The notes under the pieces were generated by a model. The model was not told where the DNA came from and searched no databases. It was given only the letters and a program-made list of their open reading frames with translations. From Branchiostoma floridae (Eukaryota; Chordata; Leptocardii; Amphioxiformes; Branchiostomatidae), in NCBI RefSeq assembly GCF_000003815.2, contig NC_049994.1, positions 11,689,376 to 11,753,375 on the forward strand: DNA of 64,000 bases, given 5' to 3'. Below are positions 13,601 to 63,797 of the stretch, in pieces (the stretch's first letter is position 1; each line of letters starts with the position of its first letter). Position numbers and translations under genes: made by a program.

Positions 13601-13740
13601 TGCATAGTTTAAAAGATTTTGTTGTGTTTAATGGCAAATAGCAAGCACACGCACGTGCATCCTCTGCCATCATTATTTTCCTGATATACTGACGAAACTT
13701 TATCCCTCATTGAAAAGTGAAAACTGATTTTGTTTTTCAG
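10612..13740. other. 3' UTR and intergenic region between the two GPCR genes
   Basis: The first 620 bases up to AATAAA (11234-11239) are plausible 3' UTR of GPCR 1. The rest should contain the untranslated first exon of GPCR 2. A weak candidate ends GGAGACAG before GTATGACA at about 12665, and part of it (CAGGTTTCTTGAAGACGGG, about 12600) resembles the end of the GPCR 1 leader exon. A short direct repeat (CGTAGATAAGGATTTCACT, twice) lies at about 12485-12535. Confidence 0.4.
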
Positions 13741-13744
13741 AACA

Positions 13745-15192
13745 ATGCCAGAGATGAATGCGTCTCTGGATCCTAGTGGCGACTTCCTTACCAATTGGAC
13801 AAGCGTGTCTACTACAAACTCCAGTAATTTCACAACAGAGATACCTTCTACTGATGCCGTTACTGTAGCGCATGACACACTCAGTACAGAAACAATTTCA
13901 ATCTTTGTAGAGCTCATTCTCGCTGCTATAGGTATCATAGCGAACTCTCTCGTCATTTATGTTATCGCGAGATATCGCGAGATGAGAACAGTGCCAAACG
14001 TTTTTGTTTTAAACCTTGCCCTGGCCGACCTTTTGTATTGCTGCGAGTTCGTCCCCATTTGGAACGCTCAATACTTTTTGCCAAACAAATGGATATTCGG
14101 ACAGGCTATGTGCACAATAACACGGGCGCTATACGGTATTTGTGGAAACGCAAGTATCCTGTTCGTGATAGCCATGAGCATAGAGCGGTATCAGGCTGTA
14201 GCAGACCCGATCGGACATCATCAGCGAAGTTCCAAGAAGCGAACATGGCTCATCAGCGCCGGCCTTTGGATGGTGTCAGTCATCTTCTCAATCCACATCA
14301 TCGCCTTCTCTAAGGTCGAAACGTATGGCACTCATAAAGGATGCAAATCAGATCCAACAAGTGTTGCACCGTATGAAGACTACATGAAAGGAATCCTGAT
14401 CTATCGGTTCGTGGCGTGGTGCATCCTGCCACTGTCCATCCTGGTGCCGTGTTACTCTAGGCTGTACTACAAACTGCACCACGGTGATCATGATGTGATC
14501 CAAGCTGATTCATCTGCAGCTGGATCCACGGCCAAATCTCGAAACCGCGTCACGAGAATGGTGACGGTTGTTGTGGCGGTGTTCACCGTCTCCTGGATGC
14601 CGTTGCACATCGTCTATCTGGTCAAATATGGCTTCCATCTGTACAGCGTCCCTGAAGGTATTCTGTTCTTACAATACTTTTTTTTTTAAATCTAGGTTTA
14701 TATAATATTAGGTTTGGGGCCACCTATAGCTACCAGCTTGTTTTGGAACTGCAGGGGCTCTTTTGTCAAAATTTTTCCAAGGAGAATAACCGAAGAGAAG
14801 AACGAGGGATTTCCATGATATTTATTATGCAATTAGCTTAGGCAGGGATGATTTATTTTCATAATTGATGCGAAAGTGCCATAATTCTTTATTTGGAGTT
14901 GAGGTACAAAACTGAGATCTGGGAGAGGGTTGAATAGATAGTTTGGGAGAGAGAGAGAGAGAGAAAGATAACGGTTATTACAAATTTTACAGAATATGTT
15001 ATGTTGAAGTCAAACACTGTATAATAATCTAATAAAATGATTTTTGTTTTCTCAGGGCACCATGATCCACTGGAGCTGTTCGTGGCCATGCTGTCCTCCA
15101 CCAACCCCATGATCAACCCCTTCCTGTACGCCCTGCTGGGAGACAAGTTCCGCATCTACATGAAGAAGGTCCTTTGCTGCGGCCGCGGGTAG
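13745..15192 (+). CDS. Rhodopsin-family peptide-type GPCR, paralog 2, short C-tail, 349 aa
   Basis: Two coding exons, 13745-14657 and 15056-15192, with the same intron position and phase as paralog 1 (1050 nt, 349 aa). The acceptor-ACA-ATG arrangement at the start is identical. The transmembrane core is very close to paralog 1: same ERY, conserved Cys pair, SWMPLH in TM6 and NPFLYALL in TM7. The N-terminus and the ICL3 region (two or more extra residues, DHD) differ more. The protein stops at CCGRG followed by TAG, so it lacks the roughly 60-residue Ser/Thr-rich tail of paralog 1. All seven membrane segments are intact, so it is probably functional; loss of the tail would be expected to reduce kinase/arrestin regulation (inference). 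Confidence 0.9.
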
Positions 15193-20900: not shown

Positions 20901-23900
20901 GTGTCGCCATCAATCCCATACTTCTTTGCGATGCGCTCTGAGCGGGGAGGCATGAACGCATGCGCAAGACCAAGACCTGTGCCGCGACTGCAAAAAGAAG
21001 TAGAATGCTGCATCCATAAGTAAGAACAACAGACTTTCTTAGAAGACCTACGGCAAGCACATGTATATAGAGGCAATGACTGCACATGCAAAAGCACAAT
21101 TGTAGTTGATCTTTATTCTAACTTAATGTCAAAGACAGCAGTTTTTAATTCGTCATATTAAAGCAGATTTAGTCACAGTTATTCAATCATCCTATTTAGC
21201 TTAAACTATATATGAGTTATTCCGTAAAACATCAAAAAAGAAAACTATCCTTCGTTCAGAATATTCTAGAAGGCAAGCGGATGCAAAACAATATATTGTA
21301 ATAAAACGCATCAACATAAAAACGCAATCAAGTATCAGCATACAACGAAGAACACAACACTATATATCAAAACTCTTTTATTTTATTCTATACAAATTGT
21401 TTGAAATTATTTCTATTTCATGATCAAATCTTTGTCTTGACACATATGTAGATTTCACCTATAACTTATAAGATAAGGAGAAAACTTACTCCGGGTCCCA
21501 GCGCCCGTCAAACGGCGTGCCGTCCCCGTGGTCCCAGCGCGGGAACGCGATGAGCATATCCGCATTTCCTGACGTCACTTCCGTAAAGTCCAGCGGCGTG
21601 TAGTCACTCCATATTTGGAAGGCGTCGTGCATGATTCTGCGCACTTCTGATTGGCTCAGCCGAGGGGTGTACTCAGTTATCCTTTGTGCAATGAGAAAGT
21701 TATTTACCATTCAGATTTGTAATGGTAATTACCCAATAATGATTGACATCTAACTTAATTAATATTGACTTTTCTCTCAAACAAACTAAGTGTCTCATCT
21801 ACATGAAGAAATAGTTGAAATACAAGTAAATGTTTGAAAAAAATCAAAATCTATCAAACTAAATTTAGATTGAATAGCTTACGGAATCGTCTCTTTGTCG
21901 CATTTGGATGCGATCGTCTGGTACACTAAGTAGTACTGTTACTGTAATGATCATTTTTACTTGGTTGAATATGGATATCATACTTTCAATCGACTAATAA
22001 GAATAATAATCTATAATGATGATGAGAACTAGATAGCTCGGAAATCATGAGTTATCATGATTATCAATGCTGTTCCATATTGGATTTTTGTAGCCGTAGA
22101 TGGACCTACGAAAATACGTGTGACTGTTACATACTTGTACGTTATTTGGAATTTGTGCCACTTCGTCCCTGAGAGAACATAGGGCGCAACATCCACAGAA
22201 AGCCAGTCCATCGGGTCCTTAACGGAACATCTGAAATTGAATTATAGGGCAGTGGATATGCACAGAAAAGTACGTTTCTTCTGTAACTTTTTTTTTTAGA
22301 TTTTACTTCCGGAACTACATGTACCGTAGTTTGTTTCAAATTCTACATATTTGTGTGATTAAGCCCCGTTTACAAATCAAGAATTTAGCTCGGCCGAGTT
22401 GTCAGCGAGCTCTAAATTACGAGGAGGCATGACCCTGACGCCTACGAACAAATGGCAAAATCTCTTCGTCGGCATCAGGGTCATACCTCCTCGTAATTCG
22501 CTGGCAACTCGGCCGAGCTAAATTCTTGATTTGTAAAGCCCCCTTTAGAACACACTGTCAGGCTGTCAGGTCATTTTGTATAACATAGATACAAATCATT
22601 CTTACGTTTTCAGAGTTGGTATTAAAGGGAACTACATACATACTCCAAACATCTATTAAGTTGAATTTCCAACAATTAGTACATGTAGTGCAAAATTACT
22701 AGTCAACATTTATTCAATAAAGCAAACAAACCTTGGTGTATGCATTATTTTTCTCGTGACGTTGTCGACTTTTCCGGTGATAGGTATCCCATAATTCCTC
22801 TGCATTTTCACAATGGCGGCGGTCAGGTTGAAATCCACCGGTGGGGACAAATTTTCTGTTCCGTTTATCAAACGTCCCGGGTCTGTTTCTGATGGGTTCT
22901 CTTGTGCGACATAGCCGTACTTTGTGAGCCATCTCTGTGAGAAACAAAGCAGAAAATGATTAGTAGCTTACAAGTTTACCTGTTCAGCGTTCTACTCGTT
23001 TACCTCAACGTCTCTCATTTTTAAAATCCCCAAAATTCCTCTCAAAGCTCAGTACTTTTACTGGCTTTTTATCCTGACCTTGAAGTTTATTTTGACCTTC
23101 AGCGTACTCAGTATGATACAGTGCCCATGCAGATATGCCGATTAAAAAGGACTACTTTAATGAGTGGAAGTTTTCAATTCAACTGAGAAGTTACTAAAAG
23201 AAATAACTTTTTTGTTGGCTGGTTTCCTATTGATCCTTACCATCGAAAAATTTGTATCACAGACTAGAAGGACTGACGATAGTAGATGTGACTTCAGGGC
23301 CTTTGCAATCGACCGAAATGGCCGCAAACGTCCTGTAGCACGCTTTTTGTTATGATTTTACTTCCGCTGGTCCAAAGCCTTTTATGTGGCCATATTAGGT
23401 AATACAGTCGCCTATGGCGGACGGAAACCGTCTGAGAACGATGGTGCACATGTACAATAAAATAAAGCATCACTTCTATATAATATCAGCATTTTCAACT
23501 GAAATGAGAGCCATAATTTTACAACTAAAACTGTTAGGTCATCGTCAAGACAATAGCGCAGTAGCGCCCCTGACGGCAGACTTGTGTACTGCTCCCATTG
23601 CATACTTCCCCTGTTACCGGCCTTTGGATTTGAAAATTAAATCTCCAACACAAAATGAAAACAGACTTTCTAAATGCTTTGCCCAATCATCTACCCCCTT
23701 TCAAGATAATCCATTCAAAACTCCGACTACTCGATCTGCTGAAGATTCTATACATCCGTTTCGTGTATAAGCTGATAGTTTAGTCCCATATTATGTCATT
23801 ATTAGATACAGAAGAGCTTTGATGCAAACTTTCGTTAGCTGTGTAATCAAGAAGGTAGTCATGAGAGAAAAAAAAGCAAGGTTTTATCCAAGGGCAAATA

Positions 23901-25257: not shown

Positions 25258-27745
25258 TTAATCATAAAAGTAAATTTCGTCGTCCTTTTCGAAGACGTTT
25301 TGTTCAGGACTTGGGTCCATTTCATCGATCAGCATAGCACTAGTTTCCGTTTGTTTCCTGCACCACGGGATGGGGAGTTTGTGTCGAAGGATGAAAACCA
25401 GACAAGCAATGACTACGCCGATGAAAACTCCACCGAAAAGTGCAGCAACGAGAGCCGGAATACCGAATTGCGATTCTCTCTCACAAAGTGAGGTGAGCTG
25501 CTCGGGCAACACGGTTTCTAACGGTCTTCCGCGCATGATGTCCGGGCTTGCGCAGACGGCGGCGGTCCTTTCTCCATTTCCGTCACTGATCCAAGCACGC
25601 AAACTCTCGACCCCACAGTCACAGCGGAAAGGGTTCTCCGTCAAGTTCACAAACGTCATCGGCGGGAGATTGCTAAAGGCCCCACCGGAAACTTCTTCGA
25701 TCTGATTCGAATCCAAACGAAGCTCTAGAAGAGACGACATGGCTTGAAAGGCTCCTTCGTGGATGCGACTTATCTGGCAATGATCAACAGCAAGATATCG
25801 GAGATTTTTCGTATTGTTAAAGCAGTTTGCTGGAAGCTCGCTGAGAAGGTTGTGACTGAGCTCTAAAGTCTCAAGTTGGCTAAGATGTTGGAGAGAAGCC
25901 GAAACAGTAACTAGCTTGTTATGGTTCAGAGTGAGTTTCTTAAGGGCCAGTGAACTTTGCTGATCGAAAGCGTTGTCCTCGACGAACGTGAGTTTGTTGT
26001 TATCTAATGTCACGTTTTGTAACGCCGTAAGGCGGTAGAAGGTATGTTCGAAGATATGGGAAAGTTGGTTGTTGTCCAGGTGAACAGACTTGAGACGAGG
26101 AAGAGAGGAGAAAGTGCGGCTGTGAAGTTGTTGCAGTTTGCAGCCTTTCGCGGTGAAACGTTCCAAGTTGTCCAACGAATCCAACGCGTTGTCTCCAATC
26201 TCGGCTAGAGAATTGTTATCTATGTTTAGTTTTCGCAAGTTCACGAGAAATCGCAGGTCTTCTTTCCTCAGACTCGTGATGTTGTTTACACTCAAATCTA
26301 CGTTCTCAGTACTGGGGGATAGGGACGGTACGAAGAGCAGCTGATTTCTTGCGATGTCAACTGTCCAAAGGGAAGAGAAATCGGAAAGCGAAGGCAGGCT
26401 TTTAATACTGTTGTTACGCAGCAGCAAGACCCTCAAGTTAGGCATTGCCGCAAAAACGTTTTCTTCGACAAGCTGTATTTTGTTATTGCTCAAACGAAGA
26501 CATTTCAGATTATTCAACCCTTCGAAGGGATATCCAACAATCTCTGCGATCTTGTTATTTCCTAAATGTAGTTCTTCTAGATTGACAAGATTAGAGAATA
26601 TGTTATTTCCCAAAGAAGCGAGTTCGTTGGACTCTATGTAGAGATTCCGGAGGTTTGTGAGCCCGCTAAACATTGTGCGATCCAGGTTCGTAAGCGAGTT
26701 CTTGGACACTTCCAGGGTGGTCAGATTCGAACTTTCTGTTGACACCAGAGGGCGAAGGTACGTTAGCTTATTCCCTCCAATATATAACACGGACAAAGAC
26801 GGCACGTGGTCAAGAAATGACTCTTGAAAAACGTCTATTCCGTTTTCATTTAAGAAAAGAGTGGTGAGGTTGGGTAAACCTGCGAAGCTTTCTCCTCGGA
26901 TTTGGCTTAACTGGTTTTTAGACAGGTCGATAAACTGTAGGCTGCTGTGTCGAACGAACGCGCGGGTTGGAAGGTTCGCTAGGAAGTTTCTAGGAAGTCT
27001 GAGTTTGTGTAAGTTTGGGAGGATCTGTGCATCGAGCCCGTCAAGGTTTACGATGAAGTTTCCTGTGGCGTCTATTTCTTCTGTTGTCTGTGCGATGGGA
27101 GCAGGGAAACCGGGCAGTCTCTTCTCATAGCATCGCACATACGTCCTGTTGGTGTAAAAATGCAACATTAGTGAGGATACATTACTTTGGCTACATAAGC
27201 GACCGAGAGAGCGAAGGGAAGCTAAAATGCTGACACCCAGGCTTTAATAAACAAACATACTATACATAGTACTAACAAGAAATTCTGTCAACAGTTGTAT
27301 TTCTTCGAAATTCTTCTTGAGTAGTTTGTTTATGAAGCAAGTAGGAATTGTTATAACGTTACCGGTAGTTCACCTTTATCCGCGGGGTAACCTAAATCCG
27401 TTGCTTAAAAAACAAGGGCATTTAGGGATATCAAGTACACGGACACTAGTTTCAAAGTGCAATATGCGCCTTTTGAAAAAAAAAGAAAGAAAATATTTCC
27501 ACTTACAACCATCGTCCGTCGACTTGATATTCTTTATATCCTGTGTTTAAAAACATCGGGTATAGGTTACCCCGCGGATGAAGATGAACTACCTTAGACT
27601 CTTTGGTAACTTACGAGTCTACACAGGTGCATTCTGTTGGACAGATGTCGATGTGCGAGTCTATCTGTCTGAAGAGGGCAGCCAGACCGAACACGCACAG
27701 GAACAGCGCACGGACTGACGGACTCTGGAACCCAGAGATCTGCAT
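25258..27745 (-). CDS. Leucine-rich-repeat type I transmembrane protein, 672 aa
   Basis: Two coding exons: 27745-27615 (ATG in an exon whose acceptor is at 27777) and 27145-25258; total 2019 nt in frame. Exon 1 codes the signal peptide and the LRRNT Cys motif CPTECTC. Exon 2 codes about 20 leucine-rich repeats with the LxxLxLxxNxL pattern and the interval F/GLxxL. It then codes an LRRCT cap (NPFRCDCG...C...C), a single membrane helix (ALFGGVFIGVVIACLVFIL) and an acidic cytoplasmic tail of about 45 residues ending DDEIYFYD. There is no TIR, Ig or fibronectin domain, so it is not a Toll receptor or LRIG. It is likely a cell-surface adhesion or recognition protein; partner unknown. Almost all of the extracellular part comes from one exon, as in many LRR membrane proteins. 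Confidence 0.92.
27364..27594. mobile_element. MITE with about 38-bp terminal inverted repeats
   Basis: Left end GGTAGTTCACCTTTATCC then GCGGGGTAACCTA; the right end is the reverse complement (TAGGTTACCCCGC, then GGATGAAGATGAACTACC). It fills most of the intron between the two coding exons of the LRR gene. Confidence 0.85.
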
Positions 27746-28482
27746 AGCTGATCCACGTGCACGGGGCGTCTTTTCCCTACAGTAATAGAAAACGGTATGT
27801 ATTTTGATAAGGGCAAACAAAGGAAGTGACGCATTATGGTTGTCACTCAGCACAAATAGTTGGGAAAGGTGAATTTGATCATCATTTCTGTGTTGCTACA
27901 TGTACTTTATCATTGGTATAATTAGAAAGCTTATTTATCAGTGATTGCAGTGATTCGAAATGTGTCATGATCATAACAAATGTGGTATTGTTGTCAAGGG
28001 CAATAAACACGCTTTCCAAGTACACGTGTATGTGCAATACAACGCAATGTATAGTTTTCTTTGAGACATGAAATCAAGCCTTCCAAATTTGGTTCTGAGT
28101 TTATCTAGTATTATCACACTTTTCCAAATGACCTTTGTGTCGTTAAAATGAACTTTTTACGACCCCCAAAGGTGAAACGTTACATAACGGGCTAAAATAT
28201 CTATCAATCAACTTTGTGAATTCTCGTCATCATCGTACATTTAAAAGGAATTTAAAGCTTTCTTGAGGGGGGAGGGGAGCTGGAGAACAAGACTACATGT
28301 GACATACAAATGTGGCAACGAACGGTACTTTGCATCATACATTGCAGTGCCAGTTAGATGATGAACTGATAAGTTGACCTACTTAAAAAGCAGCAGAGTT
28401 ACGAAAACAACTTTAGAATCACGCTATGACAAGCAGACGAGTTCCCATCGCCCTCTCAGTGTGACAAACAGATCAAACTTAC

Positions 28483-47679: not shown

Positions 47680-48067
47680 TAAACATAACAAACAAACAAA
47701 CAAACGCTACTTTCATAGACAGAAAAATGGCTCAAAGTTTTACGGAAGTCTCCAAGTATATACATATTTTGTAAGTGACTGAAAGGTACCGTACATGACC
47801 GATAATATCACCCACTGATCAGTCAGTAAGTGGCGCTAGCACCGCTGTGATTAGTCACATCGTTATTATCAACAGACAAACAAACAAGACAACAAACAAA
47901 AAAGCAAACGCTACTTTCATAGATACAAAGAAGTTTTAAGGAAGTCTCCAAGTATAAGTGACTGAAAGGTACCGTACATGACCGATAACATCACCCACAG
48001 ATCAGTCAGTAAGTGGCGCTAGCACCGCTGTGTAGCTCCTCATGATTAGTCACATCGTTATGATCAA
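47680..48067. repeat. Tandem duplication, unit about 203 bp
   Basis: Two copies begin at GCTACTTTCATAGA (47706 and about 47909) and share GGAAGTCTCCAAGTAT, GTGACTGAAAGGTACCGTAC, AGTGGCGCTAGCACCGCTGT and TTAGTCACATCGTTAT. The copies are more than 85% alike by eye. Confidence 0.85.
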
Positions 48068-49349
48068 CGGAAATTGAATTACTTTCCATCGGCAATGCTT
48101 TAGGGAAGCTTACATTACGTTTGCGCTCGTGTCAACTACAAATTAATTGAATTGACCCCGCTTATTTCAATCTTCCCGGCGACACATGTAGAGAGGAAGT
48201 CGGGGAAAACTAATGAGTATGGATTTACGGCTTTAGTAAGTGAACCGAGATGATTTCCCCCTAAAACCTTATTTACAAGACAGTTTCAATTTCAAGTCTT
48301 ATCTTGCTTATATTAGTCAAGAGTTCAAAAGTTGTATCTCAAACACTTATTTTCTTGTATTTCACTAGTGAAACTGATAGAATAGATGAAAGTTTCTAAG
48401 CACAGTATAAAACTCAATTCTAACAAGACCTATTTTTGTTTCAAATTAAATGGCACTGCAAAAACAGTTTTAGATTCTTTTTAGTTAAAGTGATTTTTTT
48501 AACATTTGCGATAACGTTTACGCTACAGGCATGGCAACAAACCTCATTTGGGGCAAACTGGATGTTATGTTTTAACTGTTGCCATTAGTAATGTATGAAT
48601 TCCCGTACGTTAACATCTGCTAGCTGCATGGTAGCATGTGAACCCAGTAAAAACTCAACCCCAGTTGTCTCCCACAAATCTTGTTGCTGTATCCAGCGGA
48701 AAGGGGTACCTGGGTGAAATGGAAAGATACAGTGACTGCGTCTACAAGGACAAATCTCTACATGCAGTCAAACGTCGACAAAACTGTTGGATACAACCTA
48801 TTAAACACTGTGTCAATGTATTCGTCATGAATCTAGGAATGTCCGTTGACTAGCCATTTCAGTACAGTGTAAGCGGCAATGTGTAATAGAATTCACCTAG
48901 CTAGCTTAGTTATCATACAATTTGCGATGAAGCCATACATACAATAGTTGTTTCAGATTAGTGTACTAAGTGTATTCATTGTATACAGCGGTATTGAAAA
49001 AGTCATGATCAACTGCTGTTAAGAAACAGAAGCCTCCTGTTTAACTCAGTAAAAACGAATGGTGAAATTGTTCTTTTCTATAAGATATAGGAGACGTGTA
49101 CGAATGCATGTAGTGACATCTACGAAACAGCCTTACAAAAGAATAATGACATAGTGAGGAAATTGCACCCTCAAACAATCATTGGTTAAACAAATTATCT
49201 TTTGGTAAGAGCCCCTTACATGTTTTATCCATTTGCCGTTGTTACTGATTGTGATCCATTCAGGTGCGATAGGATCAGACGCATACATTTGTTTGACCAA
49301 CGATTTGTCTTGATCATCGGTGTGGCGACACAGGTACTAGGTGCCACAT

Positions 49350-49640
49350 GATAGGATCATGAGAAAGAGAGAATCGTAATGGACCTTTGGCATCGACAAC
49401 ATTAGATCGCAGTCAAATTATACTCGGGTACCCTATTTAAAAAAGAAACCCTGAAACATGCTTTTATTGATATATGCCCTAAGTCTGTTTTCTTCAATGC
49501 AAAACACGTCAGTTCTGGATAACTGGGATATGTCTATAGATAGGATCATGAGAGAGAGAAGCATGTTGTACCTTTTGCATCGACAACATTTGACTGCAGT
49601 CAAATTATACCTAGGTACCCTATTTTCAAAAGAAAATCTA
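49350..49640. repeat. Direct duplication, unit about 100 bp spaced 190 bp apart
   Basis: GATAGGATCATGAGA at 49350 and about 49539, each followed by CATCGACAACATT, GCAGTCAAATTATAC and GGTACCCTATTT. Confidence 0.8.
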
Positions 49641-52600
49641 AAACTCAACCGTACCATAAACATTAATATTAGAAACCTTTACCATTTTTTGTATGTATAC
49701 TCCAAAATTTGTTCTAAGAATCCAAATAGAGGACTCTATAATATCAATTTGTGTTGCCAAATTGGAACATTCTGTTCCTCTCAATTTTCTTTATATCCAC
49801 TGCAGAACTATGTTTTAAAGCTTTAATTTTGATTGTTAGTGTTTACAATGTATTGGTTTTTGTAGCCGGCATCACTATAAGTGTCAATCCAAACTGTCAA
49901 TACGGACATTTTTCTCATTAATTTGTAAAACAAACATCCATTTCTATTTACTAAGTATGGATTTGTAGCTTCCGTTTCCTTCTAATCTTCCTCGTCCTAG
50001 CTTTACTTGCCCGTCCTAGCTTTACTTGCTATAATCGACACCCCGGATTCCTCTTTAATGAGCTTGACAGAATTAACCGAAGAATTGCAGTGGGTAACAC
50101 TCCGTACCTAATCGATGAAAGCAGCCACCAGCCAGATAAACGGTTTGTTGCAAAGATAGATTACATACGTAAAATACTCTGTCTATTGGCCTTGAAAAGG
50201 TTTACATTGCCCCTGAGTAAAGTTCTAGGGATGATCACAACGCTGATAAGTTGAATGAACGGTTTAAATGATAATGCGCACTGAGTACCCTACTTTAAGT
50301 GGAAAAGGTTGTTAACTGTACGGCTATCTATCATCATGTCTATAGCAATTCGTCTCAGAGTATTAGCGAGGCCCGCTCTGTCCATAGAATGACGTCTTAA
50401 CACAACCTTAACTCCTTAAAGTAAACATAGTATGCAAGGTATCCTTGGCTTCTAACATCTTACAACACAGGCAGTGCTTGGTGCTTTAACGATTTATAGT
50501 CAATGACTCGAGAAGTGACATGGATATAACGATGTTACCGCCTTATGACCCAAGAAGCAGGGACATTTGTAATGTAGGACGGATCGATTTTAAGGTGCTC
50601 TTACTGATGGGGTCTTGCATTTTGCATGCTGAAACTATCTAGTGAAGCAAACAAGATTTAGATAGGTACGCATTCAGGGTATTCTAATTCACATTAAGTG
50701 TATGTGCAATGTCAATTTCTGATCACAAATAATGAAAATATATCATTTTTCTGCTCCTGAAATTCAGAAGTTTTAGCATTTCTTATCGTTACAAAATCAC
50801 TTTCAATAATGTGGCTTTCTTTTTTTTGCCGAATGTGCTTCGTTTGAGCTCTGTGATTAAAGTTATGTATATGTGTATAGATAATCCAGAATCAACCTTT
50901 CTGCAATATGGTAAAAGGGGTACTTCAGTGGCCAATAACCATCACAGCAGAGAGACGGAGGACGTCATAGAGTATTTACTACATTTCATCAACTTCTGAA
51001 CGAAATACGGTAGATGAACAGCTTCTCAAATAATGGTCTGGTACAGAATGCAATTCAAGATGCAAGTCAAGATGCAATTCTTCAGTCGGAAGTTTCATTA
51101 CTTATGAAACTGACAGCCATCACCTCATTGACACCTCTATACAAAGAATTCATCATCTTCCCTTCTTCTTCACAAGAAGAATTATCCCCCCCCCCCGATC
51201 TACCAGATCTATGTCCTTCAACGCATCGATCGCCGTTGAGATGTACGGTCAGTTCGTGCTCTAACAATGGCTTTACCGATGTCTATTTAGGGGGAGGTAA
51301 TGACTTTCTCATGCCCTGCCTACAATGTGACTACAGCCGACAACCTGACTCCCCCGCGATGAAAAGCATTGCCCTAATGCAATAAATCAATCCAAACTTG
51401 TGTGCTGAACAATGATCTATATCTACCCTGATTTTCTATGGCTAAAATTGAAATCACATTGTCCCTGTGTATATAAGGACCCATTATGTATATTGCTTGA
51501 ATAAATGTCATTACATTCCTTAATGACCTATAATTATATGACGTGATTTTATCAAGTTACATTATTTATTTATCATATTAGATTAATTTATGAAATGCTT
51601 TTTATTAGTTGGCATAAATATCTGAAATTCTACCGCACAATTCACCATAAAGCAAAATACGTTATGTAAAGACCAGTAAAGTAGATTTGTTTTGGCTTTT
51701 ACCATGAGAAAACTGCTGGTGATGTCTGTATTGTTAAAGAGCAGTGACCAAATTGAATATTCCAGGAGATTGGCATAGATATACCCGAATAAGAAATCAC
51801 CGTTTTGTTGTATTGTGTCCGGTCTAGAAAACGCAGAGAATAAAACATAGCTAAACCTAGAAATTATTTGTCTTCATACATGATATTAGAATGATTTTTG
51901 ATATTCATTTTACAATCCGTAAGGTTAAAATTGCTAATGCTCGAACACGAGTCAACACGGTGTGAATTACTTATAATCAATAATCTAATTATCCAGCTTT
52001 CCTGTTAATTAGCGCTGGCCTTGCCTTCTTATCAGCATATCCTGCCAATGATAATCAGATTATCACAAAATCGAGGACTAGGCTGATAAATTATTGAGCA
52101 TCTCTCTACTATACAAATGGACCGCTCCCCCACCCGCCAGACAACTGTCCAATGTGCGAGTCTGTGTGTACGTGTCGGCCATTCGTGTAAGGATCTCTTA
52201 AAGTGTACGCGAATCACACTCACGGTGTTTGAAACGTTAGGACACCATGTGGATTTTTCCTTGAGGCTCTCTTCGGACCCCTTTGCTATCCTTTACTGGA
52301 AAGGTAGGAACGAAAGCCTACGGGAAACTGGATCTGGAGAAAACCACCACGGCATCTTCAAGGCTTACACCAGAAGGTGAGTAGTATCTCCAAAGATTAT
52401 CCAACCATGGCAAAGACCGTATTTGTTGTCGGGATTATTATTGTGGCTAAAGAACTAGTTTTTTTGGGTTAAGTAGTTGTTTAAGATTAAGGTTATTTAG
52501 ATGTGATATGATACAATGTATTTTTGTTGGGAATTTGGTATCTATGTTTTCTGTTATTCAACACTCCTCATTACAAAGGCTTCAGGTAGTTCCTTCAGCT

Positions 52601-52849
52601 AGCAGTATTTGCCACTTCTTTCAAATTACCAAACTTTAATGGTAAGGGCAATCTGTTCTTGTCATGAAACATTTTCAATGAAATGAAAGTTTATATATCT
52701 AGATGTTTGCAACATAAAAAAATTAGATGTTTATTACAGCATTTTTGCAGCCTGATGTAGCTAAGTCCTCATTTACTATTTTATTAGCTTAATAAATACA
52801 TCATGTGTTAACCGTCTGTTGCGACCAGTATCTGATTCTACCTTCTTTG

Positions 52850-53300
52850 CCAACATTGCTGCCGTGTATATACCTTTGCCAAGAAGCAATCGAAAATTAC
52901 ACAGTCAGACTAGCAGCAAAAATCGCAGATAAAGATGCTGACACACGAATTTGTCAACTTCCTCGAACTCAAGAACTGGAAAATAGTCATTCAGTCTGCC
53001 AACATTGCTGCCGTGTATACACCTTTGCCAAGAAGCAATCGAAAATTATACAGTCAGACTAGAAGTAAAGATCACAAAGATAAGATTGCTGACACACAAA
53101 TTTGTCAACTTCCTCGAACTGAAGAACTGGAAAATAGACATTCAGTCTGCCAACACTGCTGCCGTGTATATACCTTTGCCAAGAAGCAATCGAAAATTAT
53201 ACAGTCAGACTAGAAGCAAAGATCTCAAAGATAGAATTGCTGACACACGAATTTGTCAACTTCCTCGAACTCAAGAACTGGAAAATAGCCATTCAGCCTC
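52850..53300. repeat. Three 150-bp tandem repeats
   Basis: GCCAACATTGCTGCCGTGTA recurs at about 52849, 52998 and 53149. Each unit ends CTCAAGAACTGGAAAATAG or close. A 150-base unit keeps reading frames open across the array, so the open frames here are not evidence of a gene. Confidence 0.85.
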
Positions 53301-56300
53301 GGTCAAAGGGCTCTTTAGGGACGACGATGAGTTATATTTCTGCCATCAGTTCTGCACTTTATGGCTTGCAAATTGCACATCCGAGCTAAACGTCTACCTG
53401 AAGCTAATCGAATCCACATAGGTAGACGATTGCTTTCGGATCTGAGAAATACTAAATCGACTATTGATAGGTGGTGAGACAAATGCCTTGCAGTGTTATG
53501 TCTCACAGAGGACAAATAGTTATTGAGAATAAGTGTTCCGTTGGGATTCATGGGCAATATTGTCCTACAAATTGCATGTCTTCGTCTCGCTGAACCCAAA
53601 GTACAATATCAACGAATGAATACACATTTAGGTCGTGGTAGACGCCATCCATTTGACATCGCAAGTATATCATCATTGACACAAAGTAGTATGTGGTCAT
53701 CGTAAAGTATTCACATTGATGGCACGATATAGAAGATTGAAACACGCTTTTGCGATGGAAAATGCCAAAATAAAACCCCTTGCCAACTGAAGCCCCTGAA
53801 ATCTATCGGCATGCATTTTCCATTTTATTTCATAATGCAGGGTATCGCATGACATTTCTGCACATAGAATACAGTATCAGACTCAACATGATTAGAATAC
53901 CTAGCGATACGATCCCTTAGTCTAATTTACTACGATATATACATATACAAATACGTATATGTAAATGTGTGTGTATGAGTGTCTGTCTGCGATATGGATA
54001 AGTATACTGTTGAAAAGTAGAATATGTTTCATTGCTCATGATTCAATGAACATCGATATTCTTGGCAATCTATGATCTATGATGGCAAACTTTCAAAAGC
54101 TGACTTCGCTATAAACGAAAGGAAATGTAGCAGCCGATATTTCATATTAAACGTTTTACTATATGAGTTTGCAAAAATGCATAGCACGGTCTTAGACCCA
54201 AAGTACTTTATCACCACTACCGGACAGTATGCGTTATGGCCCATTTTCTATACTTCACGGATACATAATATCCCGTATCACGATGTTATGGTTTGATGTA
54301 AGACTTTATGGGACGCTGCCATCATAACAGATCCCATTTTACCGTGAATGCCAAGGGTAAATCAAGGAGGCACAATATTGTAGCCATCTTCAAATATTGT
54401 CATCAAAAACTGACCGTTTATGAATGTGATGCGACTATGGTTGATTTATAGTTTAAGTAGCCATTCGTACAATTTCCTTCACAATAGATGGAACATTAGT
54501 TGGACCTTATCAATCTTTGGGGGAATTTGTCAGGTATTTGTAGACACAAACAATAAAGTTATGCAAGTGAAGCAACTTTATTTCTATCTAAGTGGATTTT
54601 CTGTTCTCCAATGTGGTAAAAAGGGTGCTGGTGGGTTGTAAAAACTCACTGCTTCCTTGGTTTATATCATTTTTGAAGAAAATGTTTTTTAGATATGTAA
54701 ACACCATCTGTTTCTCTATCACCTCAGTGAGCCAACAAACAATTTCATTGGACACTTTGGATTCAATCCCAAAGAAAACTTTATATTCTATGTTTATTTC
54801 AAGCATAACTGGTTAGATAGCTGGGGCCCAAGATTTTGAATAAATCAAGTCAATTCTCATCTCCATACATTCGAAGAACAGACAAACTGCCATTGTTATT
54901 ATGTGGAATATATTGCTCACTGGATTGGAAGTACAAAGACAGCCAATGATCTCTGATATTTGTCAGGCAATAAGTGAATACTATACTAATAATGAATGTT
55001 TGAAATGAAAAATAGACTCCAGCAATTCTTCGGACAAAAATCAAAATAATTGATGATGAAGCTAACCATTCATGTTCTGTGTACTTATATTACATGTAAT
55101 AGTAGTATTAGACAATGATATATAATTTTGATAATTGCTTTATTGTATCACCTTCAACTGAGCATATTTTGGAACAGGCACTGACGTTACGTTAACCTAA
55201 ACGATAGTTATGGTAACGTTGTGTGATTATGTGAAATATATCAGCGCAAAACGAAGATAGAAACGTCAAAAGGATATTCTGCTGACGGCATGATTTTTTT
55301 CCAATCATGACATTTACTTTAAATTAAAAATACTTCAAAGTTTCAAGATTTAACAGCAATATATATCCGTCATTGGGTCGTAAACATTTATGTAATCTTC
55401 AACAAGTTTTACCCTTTCCCCAATTCAAGTTTGGTTTGTGTGGCATAGTGTATGACTTCACGAAAGCATAAATTGTAAATCTATAAAACCAATTCTTCAC
55501 GGCCCGTCGATGGGATTACGTTAAACTAATTGCTTGAAGTTAAATGGTGCGTGCCATGTGTTCAGGAACGATAAGGGCGTGTAAACAACGTTTTGCATTG
55601 GTGAACGTATTGGTGCACTTCTAGATATTTCCGATGGGTCTTCTAGGTAGTCAAAATGGAAATATCCATTACAGATTGACGAAACTCAAGATAAAGATAG
55701 TCATCAGATGGCAGAAAATTTTAAAATGAAAAGTTAACCGGTAACCGCCACATAATACACGATTCCATCATTGAAAAGCAACCACTCCAATCCAAGCAGG
55801 CCGAAATGGCAGAAACCATATGGCTATATTTTATTAGGGATCACCAATGCATTATCTGCTGGCTTTTTGCAGAGCTATTTATCATTATCCCAACTGTCAG
55901 CTAGGCCATTACGGCGAAATTTTCCTCAATCAAAAATGTATTGCCTCGTAGGTCTGAGCAGGTTCCAAGTATACATGATGGGACTATAGAACCAGCGGCT
56001 CACAACTATTGATCGAAAAATTCTCCAATACTTTCCAATTCCCAGACGTCACTGTAAAGGAAGGTTTGGTTTTGGCACGCAAGGAATAAGCGATAAGAAC
56101 ACTGTTTGATGAGGAGCCAAAAATATATCGAAACCCGATTGAAGACTCATACATTACGTACATAGTAACGAGCGGATTAATACAAAAGCACGACCTGGAG
56201 GTGATAAATTTTATCTACAGACGGTTATCAATGGCGGTGGGCAATCTAAGAACCGCAAGCCCTTTGTTGCCTGCATATCTGTGTATACTTTATGATATAC

Positions 56301-56354
56301 CGTGCGATTAAAATCATATATATGTTGCAAAAACAGAAGAGGTGACGACCAACC

Positions 56355-59300
56355 ATGAATGAGGAGGAAAAAGAAGAGCTGGCCCGAAACGTCGAGGCCA
56401 GAACTTTGAAAGCCATAAAGGCTTACATGTACGAAGCCGAGGAGAAGGAGAGGGAGGATGAGAAGAAGAACGAGATCAAAGTCATCACGGCGGAGTTCAC
56501 GTCCACCACGACTGCCCATGGGGTCAGCAGGATCGGAGATGCGGCCACGTTTGGGACCAAGCTGATGTGGTGGACAATATTTCTGGCAGCTTTTAGTCTC
56601 TTTTCCTTCCAGGTACGTGAGAGAAAAATGATATAGAAACTAGGGTTCTTGTTACACAGCTCATTGGACTTTTATATAGAAAAGTTTTGGAAACTTGTCA
56701 GTCGCCGTCATCTAATCAAGCCGTAATATACTAACTCTATAAGATAATGTTTGTCATATTTTTGGGATGCACCGTCTATAACTATCCAAATTGTACATCT
56801 GTACCCTACTTTCTGTATTTTTTTATCCTTTACATTCTTCACCGTAAACTCTTTTGCAAAGTGTAAACGACAAGTTTCTGAAGCGACGTAAATGTATTCC
56901 GGTTTTAAAGACAAATTCCGAGGACTATTGTCAAATAACCAGCTAGCGGATGAAACTGTTGCAAAAGAAACACCAATTTGGTTAACTTATTACATACACT
57001 GTTTCATGTTTAAGTAAGGAATATGATTCTATCTCTAGTAAATAGATATAGTTGCGGTTTTTTTTTTGGTAAATGTTTTTGTTGAATAATACATTTCATA
57101 CAGTTGCCAAGGGTGAGATAAAACTAAACTTTGGGAGATCAACTTAAAATGTACCGGTACGCTATTTTTTTATAACCGGGAACTTGTCTTAAAAGTAAAA
57201 ATTTATAACACTGCACGAGAAAATCTAAAGTAAAAAAAATGCCCACTTGACAATACTTACTCAGAAACATATTGGCTCATTAATTCTACATGATGGCTGA
57301 AACTGTATGATATTGTGAGTGTTTAATTATGTGAAAGCAGAGTATTTGATTCTAATTCTAATACATATTTTCTTTACAGGCTTACTCGTTGATCATGATG
57401 TATTTCAGCTATCCAGTTGTCGTCAAAATCAAGGTAAGAATAACAGTCACCAATTGAAATGTGAAATAATTCAGGAACTGATACATTTTTTAAAAATATC
57501 GGAACTGAGTTTACCACATGATGACATCGAAATGCACATAGTAGATGATTTGTGTTCAAAGATTCCTGTCAACTACATTTATTTTCTCTGGGAGGGAGAC
57601 TATTTCGATCTTTTAACCCTATTCAGACCGGGCTTTTTTGGTCAACCCTTTGGGGGTGGCTTTTGAGGCCCTCCCCTTCTAAGTCTTCTAACTCTTGAAC
57701 AACTTATTGTAAAACCACCAAATCAGGGAATAATGTAAATATGATATCTGACGGTTCTAAAATTTTTGACGCTATTATAACTTAATATGACGTAATTATA
57801 ACGTCATCATTTTGATTAAATGGGCTGAACCCATGAAAATAGGGTACTCCCAGAAAACGTCAAGGTATACGACAATAATGTAACAGCCAGCGCAGATAAC
57901 AGAATTATAATGTTTGTTACAACTTGTGTTGCCAATAGTATCTTGGGCAACACCCACTTGTAAAACATTTTACTACATCTGTTCTCTTAAAAGATGTGGG
58001 AGATATTAGTAGACTAACGTATGGGTACGGTTATCGGATATCAGGTGAAACATGTAAGCTCTCCAAGAAGGCAATCGTAATCAATGAACCCTGATTATTT
58101 CATCAGTACTGGACAGCTGTAATCTTGGCTTACCCAATACAACCAATAAACGAGCACACAGCCCATTATAGCACGACATTGGTGCTGATTTATTGCATGT
58201 TCGATTTCAATCTACACCTTTGACCGAGCTTTCCTTTAAAAAGCATTTCGCCAAGGACGCAAACGATGGTCTGTATTTGCTTGAATGGCGATATACGTAG
58301 GTTTAGATTTCTGTATACTTCTCTCATTTTGTGTATTAATAACTTTGTAAAATCTAAGAAATGCCAAATTACTTAGTAAAAGAACGCACTTTATCACAAG
58401 AATCTATAACTTTAGAACTGAACAGGGAACATGAAATCTTTCTTCACCAAAATAACGAAGATATGTTTTTTCCACATTATAACAAGGTCGTGGATACAAA
58501 ACACATGGCGTTTCCATCCGTGACCATCTGCAACAACAATCGGCTGAAACGATCATCGCTGACCGGGACCCACTACAGCAGTCTGTACGATATTGATGTG
58601 ACTTCAAGGGAAAATATTGAGGTAAAATGCACCAAGAAATATACGACCATTTGTTGTAAAATAATTTACGTAGACTTTTAGAAGCTAGCCTATTTAGTAG
58701 TTATTACAATGTTATTCCATTAGTAGTTGTGATGAAATAGTATTTTCATTGAATTTAGAAGAAAATGTCATAGTGCAAGTTATGCTCAAAACGTGCCCTT
58801 GCTTTTGTTGTTGTATTTGTATCAGTGAATAAGCGAGCTACCACGTGTATTGTCTAGGAACTTAGGGGATACTGTTTCAACTTTTAAAACAACTTTGCAA
58901 TAGCAAACATTGAACACTTATTCCCATGTTTTATTCATTTGCTTGTTGTTTAGTTGTTAAAGCAAAACAAATAGATAGCAAAGTTTCCAGATTTCCAGAT
59001 TTCAAACGTGTTATGGTTTGTTTCCTGTTGTAGAAAATGCTGAACACCAGTGTTGAAGCAATCACACGGGGTGACCTCGAGGATCTACTCCTCAGGGTCG
59101 CCAGGCTACAGAACAAAACTGCACACTATCGCCCCCAAAAGTTGTCCGGTAACGACAGCGATACTGGACTAACGTCAGACGGACAAGGCACCTGTGACGA
59201 GCTATCAGGAACCCCGTGTATGTCAACTGACAGCAGACGGAAACGGGACATCTCACGCGCGTCAAATTATGATAATGCGGAAGATGCTGACTACTATGAT

Positions 59301-62300
59301 AGATATGAACCCTACAAAAGGATGAGCGATGATTTCTTAAGAGGCTTGTATGATGGCACTTATACATCATCCACTGCCAGATTGTGGAAGGGTACTTTTC
59401 TCCAAGATGGCGATAACGAAGATGGAGGAGATATGTACTTCCGTAATGGTTCTCTAACCTGGTTAGAACCGAACGAAAATCAATTACTCGTCGGGGCCGT
59501 ACCCGTGATGTCGGCGACTCATAGTTACGAAAGTATCCGGAGATCAGAGAGATCGACGAGTCAGGATGAGAAGAATATGCTAACTTTGACAGCCGGTGAC
59601 GCCTCTAGTTACAACGAGTCGTGGAAACTGTGTTCGGACATGGGGAAACAACTCTGCACTCTGCGACAACTCCGAAGCGCACACCGGTCCGGGTATCGTA
59701 ATGCTAAATGGGGATACTACAGTGAAGAAGGACGGAAGGCAATGGTCAGTGAAGACTGTAGAGATAGCGTGGATCTATGTGAGGAGTGTTACGATGACGC
59801 CTTGATGACTAAAACAATGGATGAAGACGAGTCTCTTCCTGCATACTGCTGTAAACAAACGTTCATGATTACAGAAGAAGAGTACTACAGCTACGAGCAG
59901 GCTGCGTTGGGATGCAAAGAACGTGAACTCCGCCTTTGCTCGATGGAAGTCATGAAGCAAGCTCACAGGGATGGTTTCAGGAACGAAGCGTGGGGCTGGT
60001 TCGTCCGGAATGACAAACAAATCTCTTTAACGGAGAGATGCAACGTGAGCAGGATGGTGCCCCGAAACAGGACTGTCTGTAACACAACCTTAGTGTACAT
60101 CTGCAGCAACGAAACGGAACCTGCGACCGCTGCCCCAACTGCGACCGCTGAGCCAACGACCCCCGAACCAACAGCTACTCCAGTCTACTGCAACGAGACA
60201 GATTATGAGTGCATGGGCTGTAACATAACCGAGGAAGTTAACTGCTATGTCGTAGACTACTTCGAAACTGTGCCAGCGGACTGTCATGGCGACACCATTC
60301 CCATGATTCCAATCGAGATGCAGGCGCATGCGTACTGCTGTGATTACTCCACGTGCACCCGGTCGCCCTGCAGTAGTCCGTGGCCCGGATGTAGCAGCCC
60401 GCTAGGTTTAGAAAATGGCCGAATCATGGACATGTACATTACAGCTTCATCTGCAGAACCAGCTTTTCCCGCCCACCACGCCAGATTAAACGCACGAAAT
60501 GCCTGGTCGAGCTTGTCCAGCGATCCAAGTCCCTGGCTACAAGTAGACCTACGAAGAAGGTTGATGGTAACAGGAATCATTACACAAGGTTTTGAATCAA
60601 GCTTCGTGAAATCGTTTCGGTTCAAGTACAGTAGAGACGGCTCGGAGTGGTGGACGTACAAGGAGTACTACGGAGAGAATATGTTGATTTGTGGCAACCA
60701 CGATGACAAGAGCTACAACCACCAGCACTTCGAGAGGCCGTTTGTTGCCCGTTACGTTAAAATCATGCCAGTAGATTGGAACGTTCTTCCTCGCATGCGT
60801 ATAGAACTGCTAGGATGTGATAAGATGGACTGTAATATTTCACGTCCTTATCAAAGAGAGGAGTTTCCTGATCCAGCCGGGCTGCAGTGCCTGGGGGAAG
60901 AGTGCATGACTAGTGTAAGCAGCTACCGCGGAGCTCTCAGTCAATCAGCCACGCTTACGTGCGGCGCCTGGAAGTGTCCAAACAGGCATCCAGACATGTG
61001 CTTGGAGGAGAACTATTGTCGCCCCTTCACTGGACATGGGGATACCCGTTTGGCATGCCCATGGAACTCTGCCGCACCTTTATCCGACACGTCCCTATCT
61101 GGGGACGACGCCCTGATGCCGTGCTCTGCCATAGACATTTGCAGGATCAACGAGGGAGACAAAGACACGGCTCAACCGACGAAACGATTGTTTTACCATC
61201 ACCAACACGCTCTGCAGTACTGTGAAGAAAGAGAGATGCACTTGTGCACTATCCAGCAGCTCACGTTCATGCATGTCTCTGGAAAACGTACCAAGAAATG
61301 GGGCTGGTTTGAAGCTGAGGGGAAAGAAGTCGTGTTGTCTGAAGGTTGCGGCAAGTACGTCGGGGAAAACTGCTACCAAGGTTTGTTTCCTATCGTTCCT
61401 AGTGCCGCAATCAGCCGGCCTGCGTATTGCTGTAGACCAACGTTCAGCGTTACGGATAAGAAGTATGAAATGCAACGCGATGCCAGAAAGAACTGTAACA
61501 AGATGGGTCTCCAGCTCTGCACGGTTGAGCAAATGCGAGCGGCACACAGGGCCGGGTACAGACTTCAGGGTGGAGCCTCAACTAACCTGGAGGACAAACA
61601 GCCAAAGAAAGCAGCCTGGTACTCCAGGCCAAACGGACTAGGGTTGATAGAAGAAAGTTGTGGCTGCCGTAAGGGGCGTGAATGCTACAAATCGGTCGTC
61701 ATCACCTTGGTGAACGAAAAGAAGCGTCCATCAAAAGCAATGTGCTGTGAGAAAACGGTTTTGCTGACGGAGACAGAACACTTCGAGTTTGAGAACGCGT
61801 CTCTAGACTGCGCTAGACACGGCATGCAGCTCTGCGAACTAAATCAGCTCTCTGAGGCCCACCAAGATGGCCACCGGGACAGATCCTTCGGCTGGTTCTT
61901 CGACAAGAAGAGAGCGGCTTCTCTGCCCAAACACTGCAACAACACGAAACATGAATGTGTGGAAAAAGTAACACTAGCTCCTTTAACCAGTCTCCTTCCT
62001 GTAGGCGCCTACTGTTGCAGTCCTCCTCTTAAGAGAGTGGTGAACGAAACAGGACCGTTCGTCTCCCAGTGTTATACCTACTTTCCAACATGCAATAATC
62101 CAATAGGAATGGAGAACGGCAACATTCCGGATCATCAGATTAAGGCCTCGTCGTACAAACCCGAGTTCGGAGCTCACAAGTCCCGTCTTAATCTAAAAGG
62201 TGCATGGATCAGCGAATCAAGCATACCGGGTAAAGAATGGCTGCAATTGGACATGGGAGAGGTACGCATCGTCACAGCTGTACTTACGCAAGGCCACGGC

Positions 62301-63506
62301 CTTAGTAGTGAGCAGAGTTGGGTGGAAACGTATTCCTTATCTTTTAGCATCAACGGAATCAAGTGGTGGCACTACAAAAACGCCACCACCAACGAGGTCG
62401 TTGTGTTCAAAGGAAACGACGATGGGGAAGCTATTCAACACCAGCATCTTCCAAGGGCGGTTGTGTCCAGATACGTTCGGTTTTATCCGGCTAGGTTCGT
62501 AAACAATATGGCGTTGAGAGTGGAGCTAGTTGGCTGTACGCTTGACGAGTGTGACATCAAGCAAGACATCAAGGGCGTCAAGTTGTTCAATCAAGGTTCA
62601 CTGGTGTGCAAAACGTATGAATGCATCAATGGAAAGGGCCACACCTACAGAGGAACTAAGAATGTGACGATGAACGGCCTACCATGTCAGAGGTGGAACA
62701 CGGATGATCCAAACCCCCACTGCTATTCTCAGACAAAGTAAGGAATACATTTTGAATTTATACACAGGCAATACTTACATCACAAGATAAATGGATATTA
62801 CCACAAAACACAGTAAAACTGTGAGCTATTATTTTCATTTCTATAACGACTTAGTGTTCATCTTCATGTTACATATACAGATCATCCTTCCAACAGTAGG
62901 CATTAGTCCCCTTGAACACAGACGTGGCCAGGTATCGACTTCAAAGTAACGTTGACCCTGTCATGTATTTTATCCGGTAGCTATATTTTAGTCAGTAAGT
63001 AAATCGCAGATGCACAGTTTACTTTTTAAAAACATACTCTCTGCCCCAAGACCTATCAACCGCTCAAAAATCACGACCGAAGAAAGTACAAAACTCGAGA
63101 TATCGAACCGCTGCAGTACCATAGCAAGTCCCTAGGGAGCCCAAAATCTAAATGTGTCAAGGTCTCATCAAGACCTAACCACGTACAAATCTCAAGACAA
63201 TACATCCAGGCATTATGGAGTTATGATGGTCAACTACACACATAGACACAAACACTACGGAAAACATAACCCTTTAGCGAAGTTAAAAATGTTATACGTT
63301 CTTTTGTTCTATCAGGTACCCCCACCGATGCCTGGTCCACAACTACTGCCGTAACCTGCTGGATGACCCGACCCCCCGGCCCCGTCCCTGGTGCTACACC
63401 TCGGAGAAGTCGGAGAAAGGCTGGGAGTTCTGTGAGATCGAGCAGTGTGAGCTGGCCAGGAACAACCTGGGCTTCATCGGTGTGGAGGGCGAAGGGGACT
63501 GGGCAG
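56355..63506 (+). CDS. DEG/ENaC-type channel N-terminus spliced to a giant extracellular module (F5/8C, kringle, Cys-rich repeats); partial, continues past right edge
   Basis: Five exons: 56355-56612, 57380-57433, 58487-58621, 59034-62737 and 63316-63506, ending in phase 1, so the gene continues. Exons 1-3 (149 aa) give a charged cytosolic N-terminus, the DEG/ENaC gating motif TTAHGVSRIG, a TM1 helix (WWTIFLAAFSLFSF, AYSLIMMYF), and the post-TM1 strand MAFPSVTICNNNR that is diagnostic of the family. Exon 4 then codes a furin-like SRRKR (217-220), five Cys-rich repeats, a Thr/Pro linker, two F5/8 type C domains, a degenerate kringle and the first half of a kringle (YRGT...CQRW). Exon 5 finishes it (NYCRN, PWCYT, CEIEQC). 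The phases join at every intron. The rest of the channel (finger, palm, TM2) is not in the window. A sodium channel gated by or attached to matrix is an inference. Confidence 0.85.
59034..62737 (+). other. Giant 3.7-kb exon: module layout of the channel ectodomain
   Basis: One uninterrupted frame of 1234 codons. By nucleotide: Cys-rich repeat R1 59600-59860, R2 59880-60110, Thr/Pro-rich linker 60110-60190, F5/8C-1 60385-60830 (LENGRI, WLQVDL, IITQGF, RYVKIMP, IELLGC), degenerate kringle 60880-61140 (YRG, C, NYCRP, CPW), R3 61190-61440, R4 61455-61760, R5 61775-62030, F5/8C-2 62075-62545 (MENGNI, WLQLDM, LTQGHG, RYVRFYP, VELVGC), kringle start 62610-62737. Each R repeat has C(x5-7)QLCT/S(x2)Q(L/M)xxAHRxG, then WGW(F/Y), a later C and AYCC. 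R1-R2-F5/8C-kringle and R3-R5-F5/8C-kringle form two super-repeats. Confidence 0.85.
62738..63315. repeat. Channel intron with a diverged dispersed repeat copy (63060-63225)
   Basis: 63060-63225 carries CGAGATATCG, GCAGTACCAT, AAGACCTAACCACGTAC, CTCAAGACAATACATCCAGG in the order seen at 5450-5680. The remainder of this intron shows nothing notable. Confidence 0.55.
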
Positions 63507-63573: not shown

Positions 63574-63797
63574 GTGGTGGTATCTCACTGCACTTGGGGC
63601 ACCGGTGCGACACTGCGGGGTTCGTTCACTGCGGCACTGTTGTTATTTTCGCCATCAACTTCTATAAGTTAGATATTGCGTAATACGTTAAGTATTACTT
63701 AGAATACAAAATACACAAAACGTAAGAAAATTAGTTCTCTATCTCTGAAATTTGTTGAGAACCGCACCGGTGCCCCAAGTGCAGTGATATGCCACTT
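63574..63797. mobile_element. MITE family A, copy 2
   Basis: The left end GTGGTATCTCACTGCACTTG, then GGGCACCGGTGCG, is mirrored at the right by CGCACCGGTGCCCCAAGTG and CAGTGATATGCCAC. It shares both termini and the internal CACTGCGGGGTTCG with the copy at 6719-6958. It lies in a channel intron just after the kringle exon. Confidence 0.85.

Follow-up and report, generated by a model that had tools for sequence, protein, structure and literature searches.

Within the window (the whole 64,000-nucleotide stretch of Branchiostoma floridae DNA analysed here, C16:11689376-11753375), a DEG/ENaC gene starts at position 56355, crosses the right end and stops at extended coordinate 68823. This gene encodes a complete DEG/ENaC subunit, comprising a first transmembrane segment (TM1), finger, palm and second transmembrane segment (TM2). 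Its architecture is almost certainly that of a channel subunit carrying an insert of Link-like, F5/8 type C (F5/8C) and kringle modules in its finger loop. The insert occupies approximately residues 184-1465, i.e., about 1,280 residues between the regions of the finger helices alpha1 and alpha2. Its start was set by comparison with an insert-less gene on C8, and the helices are putative assignments made by alignment and not from a structural model. The gene is one of at least 11 insert-bearing DEG/ENaC genes in the genome.

Gene model and channel core

The gene was completed by adding the DNA to the right of the window (locus L010); L009 and L010 match the window exactly and carry on from it. 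The resulting model, with splice sites inferred from the DNA, comprises 11 exons with GT-AG at all borders, and encodes 1,836 residues with a single terminal stop. The end of exon 9 was set at a GT donor; an end differing by one base ran into stops. A previous sequence-only reading had given the gene the span 56355..63506, of which the start holds and the end does not. The in-phase splicing it proposed is consistent with the model, as predicted exons 1-5 join in frame without a stop. It also advised looking further to the right for the palm and TM2, and both were found in frame, 1.2-4.8 kb beyond the window, where a genome search with the Pfam ASC profile gives two more pieces on the same strand (11754587 and 11757857). 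TM2 lies in exon 11.

In the part of the protein encoded in the window, Pfam recognises ASC (2.9e-21, profile positions 1-105 of 455), F5/8C (1.4e-43, two stretches), kringle (6.9e-18) and Xlink (7.3e-17, 61.8 bits for a cut-off of 27, with five stretches at a lax limit). Against PDB sequences (phmmer), residues 1-149 match FaNaC1 (1.4e-11) and ASIC5 (2.2e-10), which, together with the ASC match, bears out the earlier assignment of the N-terminus, HG motif, TM1 and FPSVTICN strand to DEG/ENaC. The full model, at a limit of 0.01, exhibits ASC (3.9e-85) in two stretches, the better of which aligns residues 1459-1776 with profile positions 129-455 of 455. The same protein contains F5/8C (2.6e-43, two stretches), kringle (3.1e-18) and Xlink (2.6e-16, one stretch passing alone), so the profile search proposed earlier finds all these domains together. 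The core following the insert matches ASIC1 from the finger helix through TM2 (2.2e-36, over 5-317 of 320 residues).

DEG/ENaC channels are characterised by an HG motif before TM1 and a GxS selectivity motif in TM2. The corresponding sequences are TTTAHGVSR in exon 1 and GLYVGIS in exon 11, the latter aligned with GLFIGAS of ASIC1. Windows of 19 residues with a mean hydropathy above 1.6 begin only at residues 74-75 and 1750-1763 of 1,836, and two transmembrane segments flank a large ectodomain, as is expected of this family. The intron after exon 5 contains an inverted repeat (63577-63795) with 33-base arms, 94% complementary, and a 153-base spacer, resembling a miniature inverted-repeat transposable element.

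Features of the DEG/ENaC gene, with residue numbers of the 1,836-residue model (window positions unless marked as extended; HMM, hidden Markov model)
Feature	Position	Strand	Evidence
Exon 1: initiation codon, cytosolic N-terminal part including HG motif, beginning of TM1	56355..56612	+	Pfam ASC from residue 48; PDB phmmer; splice model
Exon 2: remainder of TM1	57380..57433	+	In-phase join; hydrophobic 19-residue windows starting at residues 74-75
Exon 3: palm strand FPSVTICN and beginning of finger alpha1 region	58487..58621	+	Pfam ASC; PDB alignments; phase 0
Exon 4 (3,704 bases): remaining alpha1 region and the bulk of the insert	59034..62737	+	1,235-codon open frame beginning at acceptor
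RRKR furin-like polybasic site in linker ahead of first Link module	59235..59246	+	Pattern only, weak
Link-like module 1 (330-422)	59574..59852	+	Xlink 0.00088; family HMM 2.2e-24 (HMM built partly from module 1)
Link-like module 2 (421-511)	59847..60119	+	Xlink 9e-5; family HMM
F5/8C domain 1 (618-733)	60438..60785	+	Pfam 5.6e-24 on segment
Decayed kringle (about 765-851)	60879..61139	+	No Pfam match; first part aligns with unit B kringle
Link-like module 3 (860-949)	61164..61433	+	Xlink 0.009; family HMM
Link-like module 4 (948-1054)	61428..61748	+	Xlink 0.0019; family HMM
Link-like module 5 (1053-1144)	61743..62018	+	Pfam Xlink above curated cut-off
F5/8C domain 2 (1184-1314)	62136..62528	+	Pfam 1.8e-20 on segment
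Kringle, first part (from 1346)	62622..62737	+	Pfam 5e-20 on segment, profile 1-79/79
Exon 5: remaining kringle (to 1428) and linker back to finger	63316..63506	+	Splice model; Pfam
Exons 6-11 (locus L010)	Extended 65180-65455, 65942-66077, 66456-66663, 67043-67117, 67888-68049, 68512-68823	+	Splice model

Modules of the insert

The insert comprises five Link-like modules, two F5/8C domains, and one clear and one decayed kringle. It contains a tandem duplication, in which units A and B each consist of a Link run, an F5/8C domain and a kringle (blastp 3e-66 overall); the kringle of unit A is decayed and that of unit B intact. The F5/8C and kringle modules had been recognised in the sequence-only reading, and their place in the extracellular part of a DEG/ENaC channel is upheld by the Pfam matches and by the recurrence of the architecture in ten paralogues; the decayed kringle and the duplication were absent from that reading. 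Exons 4 and 5 together measure 3,895 bases, which is not a multiple of three, so the pair cannot be skipped without breaking the frame, and a skippable cassette of these two exons was rejected.

With regard to the cysteine-rich modules, previously described as novel, Pfam Xlink matches all five with E values of 0.009 to 1e-6, only module 5 exceeding the curated cut-off singly. A profile built from the five modules and searched against PDB sequences matches aggrecan (2e-7), followed by LYVE1, TSG-6 and CD44 (0.05-0.57, not significant singly); only Link proteins are present among the 11 sequences listed. These matches rule out a novel fold, and, as judged from the profiles, the modules represent a divergent subtype of the Link domain. 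Their cysteine pattern is shifted in the same way in all five, with a cysteine absent before the GW and present in the LC motif. The canonical Link pattern, which is also visible in the aggrecan and TSG-6 rows of the alignment, is found in none of the five, and we therefore call them Link-like and not Link.

A family of insert-bearing paralogues

A genome-wide search with a 436-residue Link-Link-F5/8C-kringle stretch as query gave at least 75 matches; such counts are lower bounds, since 96 of 869 first-look candidates were scored. At least 27 of the 75, in 11 places, cover both the Link and the F5/8C part, and the remaining 48 begin no earlier than query residue 177, beyond almost the whole Link part. 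The insert-bearing places are the window gene, a tandem array of five (C16:12.25-12.30 Mb), a group of three (C6:22.02-22.08 Mb), and two on C1 (20.767 and 20.776 Mb). As ten paralogues at three other places thus carry the insert, with varied copy number of modules, it is not a splicing artefact. ASC matches are present at all 11 places, and in the eight C16 and C6 cluster copies they reach profile position 453 or 454 of 455. All eight also have exons further upstream that carry the HG motif and TM1-FPSVTVCNNNR, and an extra Link-like exon was seen by eye in all of them except L020.

Five single open frames were scanned, none of which needs splicing. L011, L018 and L019 each contain two F5/8C stretches, a kringle and ASC from position 126 or 129 to 453 of 455. 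L014 and L015 on C1 contain ASC (1-90 and 1-87), Xlink, one F5/8C domain and a kringle, with ASC 174-455 and 166-455 in the following open frame. The fusion of channel and modules is therefore independent of splice guesses.

A search with one Link module found 21 places at E 0.01 or better, all of which fall in these channel loci and cover 10 of the 11; the locus missed, C16:12.296, contains runs of N. The Link reading of the cluster frames rests on a family HMM that was iterated on the family sequences themselves and applied to the copies other than C16c and C6c. It gives, per large open frame, five modules in the window gene, four in C16a, C16b, C6a, C1a and C1b, and three in C6b; C16d and C16e have four hits each, several of them partial. 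Ordinary Link domains amount to 46 Xlink matches in the genome at E 0.001 or better, one of which falls in the window gene and none in the ten paralogues, so the Pfam profile alone fails to reveal the family.

Two copies at C6 are irregular. In L020 (22.047 Mb), the first Link stretch is missing and the frame of the linker exon passes directly into the F5/8C part. In L013 (22.073 Mb), the large frame is broken into 798 and 530 codons, indicating either a pseudogene or an assembly error.

Origin and selection

The distance from FPSVTICN to the GHQ finger motif is 1,355 residues in the window gene, 782 in both C1 genes, and 76 in the related C8 gene, which shows the empty site, with both flanks aligning across the gap. 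A tree of the post-insert core was built from 19 rows, eight of them stitched exon pieces; C7a (L033) and C221 (L034) were scanned but are not among these rows. The 11 insert genes lie on one side of a branch with support 72/80, found in 70% of bootstrap trees, and on this basis a single origin of the insert is allowed but not proven. C8 adjoins the insert genes on a long branch, and its placement is unsure.

Omega, the ratio of nonsynonymous to synonymous substitution rates (the latter, dS), was compared between insert and channel in close paralogue pairs; the compared frames run from stop to stop and may include some non-coding codons at their start. The values for insert and channel are 0.29 and 0.07 in C16a/C16b, 0.18 and 0.07 in C16a/C6a (dS >1, rough), 0.43 and 0.16 in C6a/C6b, and 0.27 and 0.22 in C16d/C16e. 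C1a/C1b gives 0.23 for TM1 plus loop and 0.21 for palm-TM2 (dS 2.1 and 1.5, rough). As dS was not computable for either part of C16a/C16d or for the insert of C1a/C1b, the assessment of selection excludes these comparisons. In the close pairs, both insert and channel are under purifying selection; the window gene has no close pair for such an estimate.

Comparison with known systems

The window gene has in common with ASIC, FaNaC and ENaC (PF00858) the TM1 with HG, the FPSVTICN strand, the finger-palm-thumb core and TM2, its best PDB relatives being ASIC1 for the core and FaNaC1 for the N-terminus. It differs from them in its finger loop of about 1,280 residues. According to a cryo-EM study of ENaC (PMC6197857), the GRIP domain is placed between alpha1 and alpha2, which makes the insert site equivalent to the GRIP interval. 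Vertebrate ENaC thus has an extra domain at the same place; that domain has a beta-strand core with an inhibitory tract, whereas the window gene has large modular repeats.

The Link-like modules resemble those of Link proteins, clearly in the case of aggrecan and weakly for LYVE1, TSG-6 and CD44, but differ in their altered cysteines and their location inside an ion channel. The idea that force reaches a DEG/ENaC channel through an extracellular tether is shared with work on delta ENaC. In that work (PMC7958617), adding an N-glycan motif increased the shear response of the channel, an effect abolished by hyaluronidase, which serves as a proof of principle for an arm of this kind; knowledge of extracellular tethers in this family is described there as scarce. 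There the tether consists of engineered glycans, whereas the window gene would provide a natural protein arm.

Lancelets gain new domain pairs at more than 10 per million years, as stated in PMC4284660, and any one fusion is therefore less surprising. A channel with a Link-F5/8C-kringle insert is not named in the titles and abstract openings listed on amphioxus ENaC/ASIC, Link domains and domain shuffling, although automatic annotations may hold it. Likewise, the passages of PMC9822975 and PMC9949801 on ENaC/ASIC and Branchiostoma name no kringle or insertion. The parts are known; the literature searches made yielded no channel that combines them.

Possible function and alternative explanations

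The protein would form a trimeric cation channel at the cell surface, with the inserts projecting from the channel collar as a crown of binding modules. Each arm would be tied to the gating machinery via the finger loop, which in ENaC holds the gating-inhibitory GRIP segment. If such an arm bound, or was pulled by, a component of the matrix, a glycan, mucus or another ligand at the surface, the effect could be passed via finger and thumb to the pore. A tether or ligand arm built into the subunit would in that way gate the channel or bias its gating. From the sequences, we consider this mode of gating about evenly balanced between true and false, and the explanation as a whole, architecture and tether or ligand-arm channel together, slightly favoured. 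The sequence-only reading had put forward a matrix-tethered, ligand- or protease-gated channel as a possible function. Several observations weigh against the tether or ligand-arm interpretation. The cysteine missing before the GW in all five modules is the second canonical Link cysteine; with cysteines so altered, hyaluronan binding cannot be assumed, and this Link subtype may lack it. Xlink is weak in the paralogues: at a limit of 0.01 it is found in four of the five module-bearing frames and is absent in L011, and in L019 (0.00094) and L018 (0.0017) no single stretch passes. Furthermore, the insert evolves faster than the channel in the close pairs, and a coupling of ligand binding to the gate is hypothetical.

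A different possibility, which we regard as unlikely yet as the most serious of the alternatives, is an insert that serves as an ectodomain for adhesion or recognition (e.g., immune or cell-cell) and is uncoupled from the gate, the channel being mainly a membrane anchor or ion leak. The tandem clusters of five and three copies and the faster-evolving insert resemble recognition-type families, and the unusually many new domain pairs reported for the lancelet genome in PMC4284660 fit as well. However, in all four pairs for which both parts give a usable dS, constraint is stronger on the channel core than on the insert; TM1, the GxS motif of TM2 and the finger motifs are preserved. Protease gating appears rather improbable. 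As in alpha and gamma ENaC, the channel would be activated by cleavage at polybasic sites, here in the linker ahead of the insert, which would free the arm or make it mobile. Double cleavage in the GRIP domain activates ENaC, according to PMC8791634, and RRKR in the window gene, RSRR in C1a, and RMKR and RKRR in C1b all lie in the linker leading from the palm strand to the first Link module. Nevertheless, a single site is within chance in the window gene (735 of 5000 linker shuffles reach one, which makes its RRKR weak evidence) and in C1a (619 of 5000). Among these three genes, only C1b, with a pair of sites, exceeds chance (15 of 5000); the cleavage-activated ENaC proper has paired polybasic sites in its GRIP loop. 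Of seven cluster linker peptides (C6b not among them), one, that of C16b (RGKR), has a site beyond the RLRR adjoining the palm strand. Furin-type double cleavage as a family feature is thus unsupported beyond C1b.

A role as non-conducting or regulatory partner, or decay of the gene, is more improbable still: one of 11 copies (C6:22.073) has a broken frame and another (C6:22.047) has lost its first Link stretch, but the window gene is open across 11 exons and omega is well below 1 in both parts of the close pairs. Practically negligible is an artefact joining two neighbouring genes, exons 1-3 and 59034-63506. The splice sites of the window gene are inferred, but palm and TM2 follow in frame, and of three ATG frames at 48001-59033 with a signal-like hydrophobic core (crude filter), none has an in-phase GTRAG donor. 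For the family, the single-open-frame fusions of the paralogues refute it.

A second arm and other genes

Another DEG/ENaC gene, at C2:34.713 Mb (L023:2303-5950), exhibits ASC 1-99 and, continuing in that open frame, a second kind of giant arm in the equivalent finger loop. This mucin-like stretch starts directly after EERRKR and has 45% Ser+Thr and no cysteine over about 1,087 residues, a length that takes in the whole rest of the frame and may run into an intron. Downstream palm and TM2 pieces were found by profile, in stretches with runs of N. We tentatively suggest, at somewhat less than even likelihood, that the alpha1-alpha2 finger loop is an evolvable docking port. It would have taken up at least two unrelated giant arms here, one of Link-F5/8C-kringle type, carried by at least 11 genes for which a single origin is not rejected, and one mucin-like, reaching about 1,090 residues at C2:34.71 Mb. 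The resulting subunit-borne tether would make a natural single-chain force-from-filament or ligand-arm-gated channel.

At C2:29.69 Mb (L030:3816-4655), a DEG/ENaC first exon has a finger loop with RLKR and RERR polybasic stretches. At C2:691276-693366 and C7:3976826-3978682, ASC pieces lie several hundred bases apart in open frames of 750 and 690 codons, which are possibly other inserts or intronless genes. Elsewhere in the window, we noted by eye two similar rhodopsin-type receptor-like open frames in tandem (9044-9979 and 13721-14689). Also noted by eye, on the minus strand, are matrix metalloproteinase-like pieces (17975-22967; propeptide/peptidoglycan-binding-like and hemopexin-like) and a leucine-rich-repeat receptor-like gene with a 661-codon open frame (25258-27895).

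Significance

The matrix coupling of DEG/ENaC channels is an open question; PMC7958617 calls knowledge of the tethers scarce. The insert family and the related insert-less gene constitute a ready-made plus/minus pair for testing the role of a tether. The finger loop, which is the protease-gating site of ENaC, is marked as a possible general site of regulatory insertion, and the family suggests a channel with a direct connection to an extracellular component.

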